20,129 nt of DNA, taken from positions 1-20,129 of the IMG/VR virus record IMGVR_UViG_3300046371_000458. One strand, given 5' to 3'. Origin of the DNA: a virus. Both the position numbers and the translations under genes were made by a program. The notes under the pieces were generated by a model. The model saw only the letters and a program-made list of their open reading frames with translations. It was not told where the DNA came from and searched no databases. Shown here one piece after another: positions 11,727 through 20,129 of the stretch (its first letter is position 1; each line of letters starts with the position of its first letter).

Positions 11727-11929
11727 AGTGGGTACCAGAAACACCTGAAGAGGCAATGTCTTCAGTTGATCTACCAACGTGCACCGTGGATCGCCTTTGT
11801 AAAAAACTGTATGGCCATACTAACTGGGCAAGAATGGGTGCGGTTACTCCGGACGAACTTCTAAGAAACCCACACAGCTTTGATTTTGATGAAGGGATAG
11901 TTTATTTCAAGCAAGCAAGATTGGTATGA
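11702..11929 (+). CDS. Hypothetical acidic protein
   Basis: This 75-residue ORF appears to start at GTG (11702), reading MLTEEFEIEWVPETPEEAMS. An alternative ATG start lies at residue 19. The composition is normal for a folded small protein (CKKLYGHTNWARMGAVTPDELL), with two Cys residues but no CxxC pair. It precedes the 2OG oxygenase, which it overlaps by 4 bp (ATGA). No function can be assigned. It contains one copy of the polarised 11-mer at 11783-11793. Confidence 0.65.
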   Translation: MLTEEFEIEWVPETPEEAMSSVDLPTCTVDRLCKKLYGHTNWARMGAVTPDELLRNPHSFDFDEGIVYFKQARLV

Positions 11930-12606
11930 TAAAGGAAAATATATATTATTCTAAAAATGTTTTAGATGCTGCTCGTTTTAGAGATTTAAAAGATTTTTGT
12001 ACAAACCATTGTGAAGAAATACCAACATACAATTTTTGCAGAAGACAACAAGAGTCTTCTAATTTTATAGAAGAAATAATTAGACATTTAATAGGAAGAG
12101 ATCACCACGTAGAGTATTGGGTAAGGGACCAAATTGACTCAACCTTATTTCACGTAGATGCTAACGAGTTGCAGGCTAAAATAGACACAGCAAAATATGG
12201 TAAAGAAGACCCTGAAATGGTCGTTCAGTTTCCTTTAAATACTCACATACTATACGTAAACATAGATGAAAAAATGGAAGGCGGAGAGCTACTATTACTG
12301 CCGACCGAAGAATATATTATAGGTAGGCCTATACTAGATGAAAGATATAGAGTTAGAGAGGGGTCACAAATGTTGGTTGTTGAGCCTAGAGAGAACCATA
12401 TGGTACTTTTTGACAAACCTATATATCATGCTATAACTAAAGTAAGGAATAAAAGCGCTAAACGTCGTATTTCTCTTATGTTTTCGTCGTGGGGATATGT
12501 GCCTGATATATACAAAGACCATGAACATTGGGGTAATTACAGCATTGGTGACATAAATCCTACAAAATGGAAAATTCCACAAGCTGAGGAGCTAGAATTA
12601 AAATGA
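11926..12606 (+). CDS. 2-oxoglutarate/Fe(II)-dependent dioxygenase (prolyl hydroxylase-like)
   Basis: This 226-residue protein shows the double-stranded beta-helix iron site of 2OG oxygenases: FHVDANE with His76 and Asp78, the distal His168 in KPIYHAITKV, and a 2OG-binding Arg at 180 or 181 in AKRRISLMF. Strands typical of the fold lie between them (THILYVNIDEKMEGGELLLL). Related phage enzymes are often called prolyl 4-hydroxylases, but the substrate cannot be read; nucleic acid, virion protein or metabolite are all possible. The stop overlaps the ATG of the tail-type protein (ATGA), so the two are coupled, and modification of that protein is an inference worth testing. Confidence 0.85.
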   Translation: MIKENIYYSKNVLDAARFRDLKDFCTNHCEEIPTYNFCRRQQESSNFIEEIIRHLIGRDHHVEYWVRDQIDSTLFHVDANELQAKIDTAKYGKEDPEMVVQFPLNTHILYVNIDEKMEGGELLLLPTEEYIIGRPILDERYRVREGSQMLVVEPRENHMVLFDKPIYHAITKVRNKSAKRRISLMFSSWGYVPDIYKDHEHWGNYSIGDINPTKWKIPQAEELELK

Positions 12607-13508: not shown

Positions 13509-13883
13509 ATGGATTTATCAGATTTCACCAGAACATCTTCATACATGCCCGACGAAGTAGTTTATTTCGACGAAGAAACTAATGAAAATAAAACTGCTAA
13601 AGAAATAAAACTAGTTTGGACACATAATACAGAATCGAGTTTATCTGTACACGATATGTGTATTAGAGAAGGCCACGAACAGTATGACGAGTTTGTGTTA
13701 AGGGAAGAAAATAGAATAGCAAAAAAATGGATGATTGAACTTGGTTATGACCCAGATTTATATATCACAAAAGAATGGATGATTGTAGAAAAAGGTAAAA
13801 TTAGTGAACCTGATGAAATAGAGGAGTGGTTAAAACCAAATCATCCGACGGCGATAAGCCCAATAACCTCGGAGGAAATATGA
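13509..13883 (+). CDS. Hypothetical acidic protein
   Basis: This 124-residue protein is acidic and aromatic-rich, with helical segments (HEQYDEFVLREENRIAKKWM, ITKEWMIVEKGKI). It has no membrane helix, signal peptide or metal motif. It follows the previous stop with no spacer and ends overlapping the next ATG (ATGA). I do not recognise a family. Confidence 0.72.
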   Translation: MDLSDFTRTSSYMPDEVVYFDEETNENKTAKEIKLVWTHNTESSLSVHDMCIREGHEQYDEFVLREENRIAKKWMIELGYDPDLYITKEWMIVEKGKISEPDEIEEWLKPNHPTAISPITSEEI

Positions 13884-14578
13884 TATTTAATGTACCTTTT
13901 GACGTTAGAAATATTGATAACCAGATTCAAATATCAATTAGTCAAAACACTAAGGCTAAACAAAGAATAAAACGTGAAGGCGTTAATGAATACACTAAGG
14001 ACTCTGAAGGTAATTTTTTACTAACACCTCACCCAGATTATAATTTTTTAATAAGATCGAACAATAATTATTTTTTATTAAATGGTAAAATTAAAGTTAG
14101 GTTTGAATGGGATGAAACATCTGTGTTTCAAGACGAACATAAACAAACTTATAGAGATCTTTTAGATAATCAATACGTAGGTTTAAAAAACCCTATAGAA
14201 GGATCATATACCCACGGAAGTGGTTTTATGGAAAGTTCTGTAGACCATCAGTATAGATCAGACACGTGGAAATCTTCTCACCTTGCTTACGAGCCTTATT
14301 GCACAACAGGAGAAATAACTGTTATGGAAGACAACACAACTATTCTATGCCCAATGCAGCACTATCCTGGTTGGACATTTGAACACATAGATATAATGCC
14401 AGGAGAAAGCATTGTAAGTACTAAACCAGGGGACGATACATATATTGTTTTTGGTGATACTTGTTCTATAGCAGGAACAGATATTGCTAAACATGCGGTA
14501 AAGAAACAAACAAGTTCTGAAATTACAATTAAGAATGATTCTTTAAATGTCTGTACTTTGGTTCGTATTTATAAATGA
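13880..14578 (+). CDS. Hypothetical beta-rich protein, possibly cupin-like C-terminus
   Basis: I start this gene at 13880 because GGAGGA sits five bases before that ATG and it overlaps the preceding stop; an upstream alternative start at 13826 lies inside the previous gene. The 232-residue product is rich in predicted strands. The C-terminal segment (WTFEHIDIMPGESIVSTKPG, then DDTYIVFGDTC) resembles a cupin-type beta barrel by pattern, but the His/Glu metal set is not clearly there. It may be a virion protein, given its neighbours, or an accessory enzyme beside the desaturases. It overlaps the first desaturase by 4 bp. Confidence 0.7.
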   Translation: MIFNVPFDVRNIDNQIQISISQNTKAKQRIKREGVNEYTKDSEGNFLLTPHPDYNFLIRSNNNYFLLNGKIKVRFEWDETSVFQDEHKQTYRDLLDNQYVGLKNPIEGSYTHGSGFMESSVDHQYRSDTWKSSHLAYEPYCTTGEITVMEDNTTILCPMQHYPGWTFEHIDIMPGESIVSTKPGDDTYIVFGDTCSIAGTDIAKHAVKKQTSSEITIKNDSLNVCTLVRIYK

Positions 14579-15330
14579 CAGAAATTATTCCTACAAAATA
14601 TGATCGGCATTATCTTACAATCACGTATCTTCTCATTACGTTTTTTACATTAGGTTGGGTATGGCAATACATCTGGAACTTAGATCCACGATTAATCATT
14701 ACATACATATTAGCTGTTCTGGTAGGAACACTAGGAACAAATGTTGGCTACCATCGATTGTTTACTCATAAAGCATTTCGCACGTCAAAGTTTTGGTATA
14801 ACTTTTTAGCTTTCTTTGGTGTGTATGGTACAGTTGCAGGTCCGGTAGGCTGGGTCGCGACGCACTTACACCATCACCGGCATCTTGGAACAGACATGGA
14901 TCCACATACACCGTGGACCGAGGACAGCTGGTTTGTAGGCTGGCTAAGAACGTTTCTACCGTATTGGATGAACATACCGGAACCAGACCTAAAGTTGTTG
15001 GTGGGTGTTAGGCATCTGCTAGCTAATAAGTTTATTATGTTCTTGCATAAGTGGGCACCAATACAGGTCTACGGAACGGGGATCGTGATTTGGTTGTTGT
15101 TTGGTTTTGACTGGTTCTTACTGGCGTTTTGTTTCCCTATTGGTTACTCATTGATTAGTCAGTTTTTTGTTAACTGGTTTCACTACGACATTGACTTTGT
15201 ACATAAAAATCGTAAATGGATAAATATAGTTATTGGTGGCGAAGGCAATCACAAAGAACACCACGAGCGACCACGTGATTATTCCAATGACTACCCAATA
15301 AAATATTTTATAGACTGGATTAAGACATGA
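14575..15330 (+). CDS. Membrane fatty-acid desaturase, copy 1
   Basis: This 251-residue protein is an integral membrane di-iron desaturase of the acyl-CoA/acyl-lipid delta-9 type. The three His boxes are intact: HRLFTH (60-65), HLHHH (97-101) and HKEHH (226-230, in NHKEHHERPRDYS). DPHTP after box 2 is also typical. Hydrophobic segments lie at about 15-35, 40-57, 75-92, 165-190 and 190-203. It would introduce a cis double bond into host or phage-directed acyl chains using O2 and an electron donor; no donor gene (ferredoxin, cytochrome b5 or reductase) is seen nearby, so host donors would be needed. It is at the short end of bacterial homologues. The stop overlaps the second copy's ATG. Confidence 0.92.
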   Translation: MTEIIPTKYDRHYLTITYLLITFFTLGWVWQYIWNLDPRLIITYILAVLVGTLGTNVGYHRLFTHKAFRTSKFWYNFLAFFGVYGTVAGPVGWVATHLHHHRHLGTDMDPHTPWTEDSWFVGWLRTFLPYWMNIPEPDLKLLVGVRHLLANKFIMFLHKWAPIQVYGTGIVIWLLFGFDWFLLAFCFPIGYSLISQFFVNWFHYDIDFVHKNRKWINIVIGGEGNHKEHHERPRDYSNDYPIKYFIDWIKT

Positions 15331-16067
15331 CTTGGTATCAAAAGTTCCCACAATATTATATTTCACTATGTTACATAGTTAGTGTTGCGTTATTTTTTAC
15401 GTTTATATGGAATTATCTTGATTATAGGCTCATTTTGACGTGGCTGGTGTTACAATTCTTAGGTATGGTGGGCATAAACATGGCTTATCATCACCTGGTG
15501 ACGCATAAATCGTACAAAACGAACTGGTTTTGGAAGATAATACTAACATATTTTGGTGGTATCGCGACACAATCAAGTCCGAATGAGTGGGCATTGGTGC
15601 ACTTAACACACCACCGATACACTGACACGGAGCAGGACCCACATACACCTAATCTATCCGGCAATAAAATTATGGGAGTGCTGCGCGCGGCGCTGCCAAT
15701 GTTTATGAACATCACGATAACAGATACGAAGGTTAATTTGATGGCGAAAAAAAGTTTTGATGACCCTATCTATCGGTTCTTTGACTATACCCATATGTTA
15801 TGGTTTCATGGAACGTGGATCGGGATTTATTATTTATTTGGTTTTGATTGGCTTATGATAGCGTTTGTATTTCCGGTGGCGTTGTGTCATATCGGAGAAA
15901 CTGTCATTAATTGTTTTCATTTTGATATGGATTCTGTCAGACGCCATGCCTGGTTTTGGAACATGTTGATTGTTGGTGCGGGATACCATGCTAAACATCA
16001 CGATACTCCAAGAGATTACACTACAGACTGGCCAGTGAGTAAAATTATTGATATGATAAAGACATGA
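15327..16067 (+). CDS. Membrane fatty-acid desaturase, copy 2
   Basis: This 246-residue paralogue also has all three His boxes: HHLVTH (55-60), HLTHH (92-96) and HAKHH (221-225, in YHAKHHDTPRDY). It is clearly homologous to copy 1 over its length (for example GVGIN/GTNVG before box 1, QDPHTP/MDPHTP after box 2, LFGFDW in both), but the two have diverged well beyond recent duplication. Positional differences around box 1 and in the TM segments could mean different chain-length or position specificity. It overlaps copy 1 and the next ORF by ATGA, so all three should be co-translated. Confidence 0.92.
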   Translation: MTWYQKFPQYYISLCYIVSVALFFTFIWNYLDYRLILTWLVLQFLGMVGINMAYHHLVTHKSYKTNWFWKIILTYFGGIATQSSPNEWALVHLTHHRYTDTEQDPHTPNLSGNKIMGVLRAALPMFMNITITDTKVNLMAKKSFDDPIYRFFDYTHMLWFHGTWIGIYYLFGFDWLMIAFVFPVALCHIGETVINCFHFDMDSVRRHAWFWNMLIVGAGYHAKHHDTPRDYTTDWPVSKIIDMIKT

Positions 16068-16333
16068 CTATACCACAAACTACAGGACACAAATACAAAT
16101 ACGTCGGTAGTTTGAATATAGTTGATACAGATGAGAAATATATAAAGGAATTGGAAAGAACAGTGGAAGAGTATTTTGATTATTGGGATTTCTCTGTCCA
16201 CGAATGGAAAGAAGTATTATGGCCAATGATAACAGCGTTAAAGCACGAAAACAGACAGTTGAAAGCAGAGATTGCGCTACTAAAGAAAGGAATAGAAAAA
16301 GCCAAAAGAATGACGAACCAGAAACTCGATTAA
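16064..16333 (+). CDS. Hypothetical protein with C-terminal coiled coil
   Basis: This 89-residue protein starts with an ATGA overlap with the second desaturase. The N-terminal half is acidic (DTDEKYIKELERTVEEYFDY) and the C-terminal part is a strong predicted coiled coil (LKHENRQLKAEIALLKKGIE). No family is recognised. Tight coupling to the desaturases could mean a partner, but may only reflect gene packing. Its 3' half overlaps a possible out-of-frame ORF. Confidence 0.7.
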   Translation: MTIPQTTGHKYKYVGSLNIVDTDEKYIKELERTVEEYFDYWDFSVHEWKEVLWPMITALKHENRQLKAEIALLKKGIEKAKRMTNQKLD

Positions 16334-19890: not shown

Positions 19891-20129
19891 ATGAATTTAG
19901 TAGGTTTCGGACTTACTGTACATGACAGTTCAGTAGCCGCATATAAAAACGGAAAGTTTTTATACAGAAAAGCAGAAAGACAATTTAAATCAAAACATGC
20001 TCATGGTGATATGCATTGGGCCAAGTCTGTTTTAGATGAATGGGACATAGATGATTTTGAGTTAGCTGTTTCTACTTGGTTGTCTGGAAATAATTCACAA
20101 GATTTTATTAGAACTGTTGAAGGCATAGT
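19891..20129 (+). CDS. Carbamoyltransferase (NodU/TobZ-like), N-terminal part, truncated by window end
   Basis: The ORF from 19891 stays open to the window edge (79 codons). It begins MNLVGFGLTVHDSSVAAYKN, continues GKFLYRKAERQFKSKHAHGD, and matches the start of the NodU/CmcH-type carbamoyltransferase family: a G-x-x-HDSS ATPase-fold strand, then an ER-x-x-R/K-KH segment. These enzymes use carbamoyl phosphate and ATP to carbamoylate sugars, antibiotics or other small molecules. In a phage, a role in modifying nucleotides or surface glycans is possible. No ribosome-binding site is seen; upstream is AT-rich (TATAGTAATATAT). Confidence 0.8.
   Translation, partial: MNLVGFGLTVHDSSVAAYKNGKFLYRKAERQFKSKHAHGDMHWAKSVLDEWDIDDFELAVSTWLSGNNSQDFIRTVEGI

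Follow-up and report, generated by a model that had tools for sequence, protein, structure and literature searches.

The desaturase locus

The DNA analysed here (the window) comprises 20,129 bp, positions 1 to 20,129 of the IMG/VR virus record IMGVR_UViG_3300046371_000458. Two adjacent genes in it, designated Des1 and Des2, lie in a close-packed run between the genes for a DNA polymerase and an exonuclease (Table 1). The original prediction had described them as two complete integral-membrane desaturases sharing a 4-bp overlap, related to each other yet strongly diverged. The coordinates, the Pfam scores and the intact histidine boxes agree with the first part of this description, and the 37% identity, which extends across 244 aa (E 9e-58), agrees with the second.

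Table 1. Features of the desaturase locus, with positions in the window
Feature	Position	Strand	Evidence
2OG-Fe(II) oxygenase gene, at the head of the close-packed run that includes Des1 and Des2	11926..12606	+	PF13640, 27.1 bits
Gene of 232 aa upstream of Des1, 4-bp overlap with Des1	13880..14578	+	Sequence; tabulated loci
Des1, membrane desaturase, 251 aa, constant member of the pair	14575..15330	+	PF00487, 46.3 bits; relatives; SCD1-like model
First copy of AAGACATGACT, 5' end of Des2	15322..15332	+	Motif search of the window
ATGA (4 bp), Des1 stop overlapping Des2 start	15327..15330	+	Sequence
Des2, membrane desaturase, 246 aa, optional member of the pair	15327..16067	+	PF00487, 60.8 bits; 37% identity to Des1; SCD1-like model
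Second copy of AAGACATGACT, 3' end of Des2	16059..16069	+	Motif search of the window; junctions of relatives
Gene of 89 aa directly after Des2, probably coiled coil	16064..16333	+	Locus comparison

Wherever a tabulated locus extends far enough, the 232-aa gene stands before Des1 (38–75% identity). It evolves much faster than Des1, its constant companion (dN/dS 0.18–0.45); no significant match to it was found in Pfam, PDB profiles or INPHARED, and its relatives were detected only in these contigs. On the other side, the 89-aa gene adjoins Des1 directly in loci without Des2. The 2OG-Fe(II) oxygenase was considered as an obligate partner and ruled out, being absent from some Des1 loci. A simple scan for promoters and terminators gave no clear excess over shuffled sequences. 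Because Des1 and Des2 are located between the polymerase and the exonuclease, far from the M15 peptidase gene at the opposite end of the window, their position gives no support for a late role in lysis. The window closes with the start of a NodU/TobZ-type carbamoyltransferase gene (19891–20127), which is complete at L140:5189–6688; in the longer contig it is followed by a possible sulfotransferase and then by a second 2OG-Fe(II) oxygenase.

Sequence, fold and metal site

Both proteins score above the curated cut-off (29.7 bits) of the Pfam family FA_desaturase (PF00487), and neither has a match among the PHROG families. A single-sequence search of solved structures gave a match for Des2 only, to the mammalian stearoyl-CoA desaturase SCD1, and the family profile matched human and mouse SCD1 with E values of 5.9e-18 and 1.5e-16. 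AlphaFold2 models (pLDDT 80.9 for Des1 and 77.6 for Des2) were compared with the PDB using Foldseek; both predicted models matched SCD1 entries only, with a probability of 1.00 and best TM-scores of 0.66 (Des1) and 0.69 (Des2). The three histidine boxes are complete (HRLFTH, HLHHH and HKEHH in Des1; HHLVTH, HLTHH and HAKHH in Des2), and the box histidines (HxxxxH, HxxHH, HxxHH) are invariant in 10/10 Des1 and 6/6 Des2 sequences examined. From these sequences and models, Des1 and Des2 are most likely integral-membrane di-iron acyl desaturases of the SCD-like (delta-9 type) branch.

The fourth segment of the metal site departs from this pattern. SCD1 and most other phage relatives have N-x-x-x-H, with the asparagine four residues before the ninth histidine, whereas Des1 (N200, H203) and Des2 (N195, H198) both have N-x-F-H, with a spacing of three. 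Asparagine and histidine are thus both present, but this part of the site is shifted, and therefore a related reaction, such as hydroxylation, or another substrate is possible for the two enzymes.

Viral context

A 61,796-bp contig contains the full window at 99.995% identity and encodes a terminase and an SU10-like portal. Its large terminase subunit is 70–73% and its portal 60–62% identical to those of 023Pt_psg01 and of HTVC027P, a phage that infects Pelagibacter. The polymerase is 64% identical to that of 023Pt_psg01 and 55% to that of HTVC027P, and the order primase, helicase, polymerase and exonuclease is shared. The contig is close in size to phages of this type, whose mean genome size is about 58.8 kb according to a survey (PMC9599517). 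By these sequence criteria the desaturase-bearing phage is assigned to the HTVC023P-type podoviruses. Because the terminase, portal, polymerase and gene order are of the HTVC027P/HTVC023P type, its host is probably SAR11 or a close relative; for one relative, DSL-LC04, the listed host is a gammaproteobacterium.

The phage origin of the locus, which the original prediction had asserted and which a bacterial contig would have contradicted, is therefore confirmed by the terminase, portal and replication genes of the 61.8-kb contig and by its relatives. Desaturase genes are rare among sequenced phages, and nothing else was found in favour of a bacterial contig that carries the pair as a normal lipid operon of the cell. 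Against it, in addition to these viral genes, contigs assembled from many different metagenomes show the identical arrangement (all viral contigs compared are metagenome assemblies), and we regard a bacterial operon as scarcely credible.

Conservation of the pair

About 20 viral contigs carry relatives of Des1 with 78–100% identity. The two genes lie side by side in contigs L002–L010, L014, L015 and L017, and Des1 occurs without Des2 in five others (L011, L012, L013, L018 and L019). Des2 alone was never found in any contig covering the Des1 position. The presence or absence of Des2 requires at least four changes on the Des1 tree.

An 11-bp direct repeat, AAGACATGACT, brackets Des2 and has only these two matches in the window, compared with 0.01 expected by chance. 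Recombination between the two copies would excise Des2 cleanly. In L019, the 3' codons of Des1 resemble the end of a Des2 gene; this is suggestive of a trace of Des2 loss between the repeats, in a stretch too short for proof. Des2 alleles have probably also been exchanged among phages, because in L006–L008 and L021 the Des1 genes are 99–100% identical to the window copy but the Des2 genes only 63%.

Origin of the two genes

The phylogeny against bacterial and viral desaturases that had been proposed as a check of the original prediction was inferred by maximum likelihood from 89 proteins. Des1 (support 100/98) and Des2 (100/100) are each monophyletic and form sister clades within one clade (100/99), and the sister of this clade is a further viral clade (L038–L042; joint support 97/97). 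The grouping of Des1 with Des2 was the same after removal of the long-branch host sequences. Bacterial relatives retrieved by a pattern search are distant, with mostly 23–30% identity. Since the two genes are sister clades with a viral sister group and only distant bacterial relatives, they are most simply explained by a duplication inside a viral lineage that predates the diversification of the sampled phages, rather than by two captures. Two independent captures are not favoured, given the strength and stability of the sister relationship. A recent capture from a host was likewise set aside, as no close cellular homologue was found among the sampled sequences; bacterial desaturases were sampled incompletely, and cells may hold a closer relative.

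Selection and the substrate tunnel

For sequence pairs with unsaturated dS, dN/dS was 0.02–0.17 in Des1 and 0.03–0.10 in Des2, the estimates being pairwise and quick to saturate. Both genes are under purifying selection, and the low ratios together with the intact histidine boxes rule out a decaying second copy. In the alignment of Des1 with Des2, all copies agree at 62 positions, and a further 45 are fixed differences. Among these 45 are two that correspond to SCD1 tunnel positions that set acyl-chain length, namely Tyr104 and Ala108 of mouse SCD1, numbered from the location of box I. Val48 in Des1 and Gln43 in Des2 are found at the equivalent of Tyr104, and Thr52 and Met47, respectively, at that of Ala108. 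The phage/SCD1 alignment is gapless around both residues, on a distant template (16–20% identity).

In SCD1, the channel is capped by Tyr104, and preference for C16 over C18 chains goes with a bulkier residue in place of Ala108 (PMC7317563). If the analogy holds, Des2 may favour shorter chains than Des1 does. Because their tunnels differ at two chain-length positions, the two enzymes probably act on different chain lengths or acyl carriers. The two specificities that had been proposed for the pair thus gain indirect support from invariant differences at these positions, a comparison of two residues with a distant template.

Putative hosts and electron supply

A host-like set was assembled from small alphaproteobacterial genomes (1.1–1.6 Mb) around G036, a centre selected because it has a proteorhodopsin and a low local GC content; the set presumably represents Pelagibacterales. 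A PF00487 protein is present in 56/60 of these genomes. The 12 host-order desaturases examined have the boxes HxxxH, HxxHH and HIEHH and form a clade separate from Des1 and Des2. The phage desaturase profile matched only one genome of the 60, and weakly (E 4e-6), so that no close relative in host genomes, as looked for in a host-acquired auxiliary gene, was found for the pair. The sampled putative hosts are thus without the enzyme branch of Des1 and Des2. A search of the host order for DpoZ (2-aminoadenine polymerase) gave only matches below the cut-off.

No electron donor gene had been seen near the pair in the original prediction, and this holds for four families across the 61.8-kb contig: none of Fer2 ferredoxin, cytochrome b5, rubredoxin and FNR-type reductase turned up in it or in the phage contigs searched, and a phage-encoded donor from these families was rejected accordingly. 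Fer2 proteins are present in 6/6 host-like genomes, and the donor is presumably host ferredoxin.

Function of the pair

In our judgement, with a probability of roughly two in three, Des1 and Des2 are a lipid-modifying auxiliary desaturase pair, duplicated in viruses, with different chain-length or substrate preferences and driven by host ferredoxin. The two proteins would be co-produced by coupled translation and inserted into the host inner membrane, where they would place cis double bonds in the acyl chains of the host, using O2 and electrons supplied by the host's ferredoxin and ferredoxin reductase. Des2 would be an optional second activity, differing from Des1 in chain length or acyl carrier, and the two would have been kept as separate, selected functions since the duplication. 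The membrane in which the phage replicates would thereby become more unsaturated, or unsaturated at other positions. In this scheme, the substrate, regiospecificity, electron donor, host and benefit are those that we infer.

The histidine boxes and the predicted fold are the same in both enzymes, and Des2 is dispensable, as its absence from five related contigs shows. Both observations would suit redundant duplicates that carry out the same delta-9 desaturation, the second copy only raising the dosage. A dosage copy, however, should either remain similar or decay, and the low identity of the pair and the 45 differences, which include both tunnel positions, have been kept under purifying selection; redundancy is therefore unlikely. 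The FA_desaturase superfamily also includes reactions besides desaturation. The shifted N-x-F-H segment, and the distance of both proteins from any characterised desaturase, might point to related di-iron membrane enzymes, such as a hydroxylase, or a desaturase that acts on some other lipid or on a small molecule. We consider this quite unlikely, since SCD1 is the best as well as the only structural match, all three histidine boxes fit the delta-9 type, and the ninth histidine is retained, displaced by one position. Adjacency and translational coupling in most contigs would be expected if the proteins worked only as a pair, whether by forming a heterodimer or by acting one after the other on the same chain. 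But five contigs have Des1 alone with its boxes unchanged, so Des1 does not need Des2; the lack of any solitary Des2 was counted on this side too, and an obligate pair appears very unlikely.

The reading of Des1 and Des2 as an auxiliary pair with two preferences can be extended to a two-enzyme lipid-remodelling module, wholly evolved in phages, that would use the shifted metal-site motif and make desaturations that SAR11-type cells cannot make (two chain lengths or two double bonds). This extension is tentative, and we consider it possible but doubtful. SAR11 are the commonest bacteria of the ocean, and the question that the pair opens is whether phages of such abundant bacteria rebuild the membranes of their hosts in the course of infection, and with which double bonds.

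Other viral desaturase loci

Several other viral contigs have more than one desaturase gene. In IMGVR_UViG_3300023179_000086 (L144 and neighbours; positions 47,219–62,418 of 73,399 bp), a viral contig that also encodes phage-type helicases and a ribonucleotide reductase, eight different FA_desaturase genes surround a beta-ketoacyl synthase and a Rieske protein. Its gene content suggests a biosynthetic cluster, carried by a phage, whose product would be a polyunsaturated or acetylenic fatty compound, and the region is probably more surprising than the Des1/Des2 pair. Two desaturases each are found in L081 (5896–7356, back to back), L065 (5968 and 8336) and L077 (5764 and 8947). These belong to clades that are not related to Des1 and Des2, and the presence of several desaturases in one phage may be a recurrent feature. 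The desaturase (H1) of CAKLQH020000002.1 (L037), listed as Acinetobacter phage MD-2021a, was left out as a phage relative: btuB, ugpQ, baeR and baeS surround it, and the phage label is doubtful because this region looks like bacterial chromosome.

Comparison with known systems

Cyanophage lipid desaturases (vFAD), the subject of work by Roitman et al. in 2018 (ISME J 12:343, doi 10.1038/ismej.2017.159), are reportedly delta-9-type membrane acyl desaturases that were read as membrane-modifying auxiliary genes. By description they resemble Des1 and Des2 in being phage-encoded and of the delta-9 type, but they belong to other phages with another host, and we know of no tandem diverged pair among them. 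The cyanophage work is cited in PMC11480375 and PMC7300359. Desaturases are also found in pelagimyophages, in PMP-D genomes (PMC7029224) and in myovirus-kind pelagiphages (PMC11480375). One example, gp80 of Mosig EXVC030M (MT647606.1), is, like Des1 and Des2, a PF00487 protein from a phage of a SAR11-type host. It is, however, a single gene in a myovirus, with 27% identity over part of Des1; the protein (216 aa) is without the first membrane helix, has the usual N-x-x-x-H and belongs to another viral clade. In the survey of 82 HTVC023P-type genomes, desaturases are unmentioned in the main text (PMC9599517). The FAD genes of sea-ice (PMC7300359) and Nitrospirota (PMC7678222) viruses have three His motifs and SCD1-based models, and are described in those papers as linked to host gene transfer or as having host genes as best hits, whereas the relationships of Des1 and Des2 are purely viral.

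Among solved structures, SCD1 (PDB 4zyo, 4ymk and 6wf2) gives the only significant fold matches, with the three His boxes in the same order. Des1 and Des2 are about 70–90 aa shorter than the deposited SCD1 chains, to which they are 16–20% identical in the fold alignments, and differ from them in the N-x-F-H motif and in the residues at the tunnel positions.

Phage desaturases have so far mostly been reported as single, host-derived genes, and single ones are already known; we found no earlier description of this conserved, diverged pair. Here, in contrast, a desaturase has apparently been duplicated in a viral lineage, and the copies have diverged at tunnel positions and are linked across several diverged phages. 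What is new is thus a tandem pair with diverged members, apparently of viral origin, in the HTVC023P-type group, with an optional second gene, fixed tunnel differences and a shifted metal-site motif.
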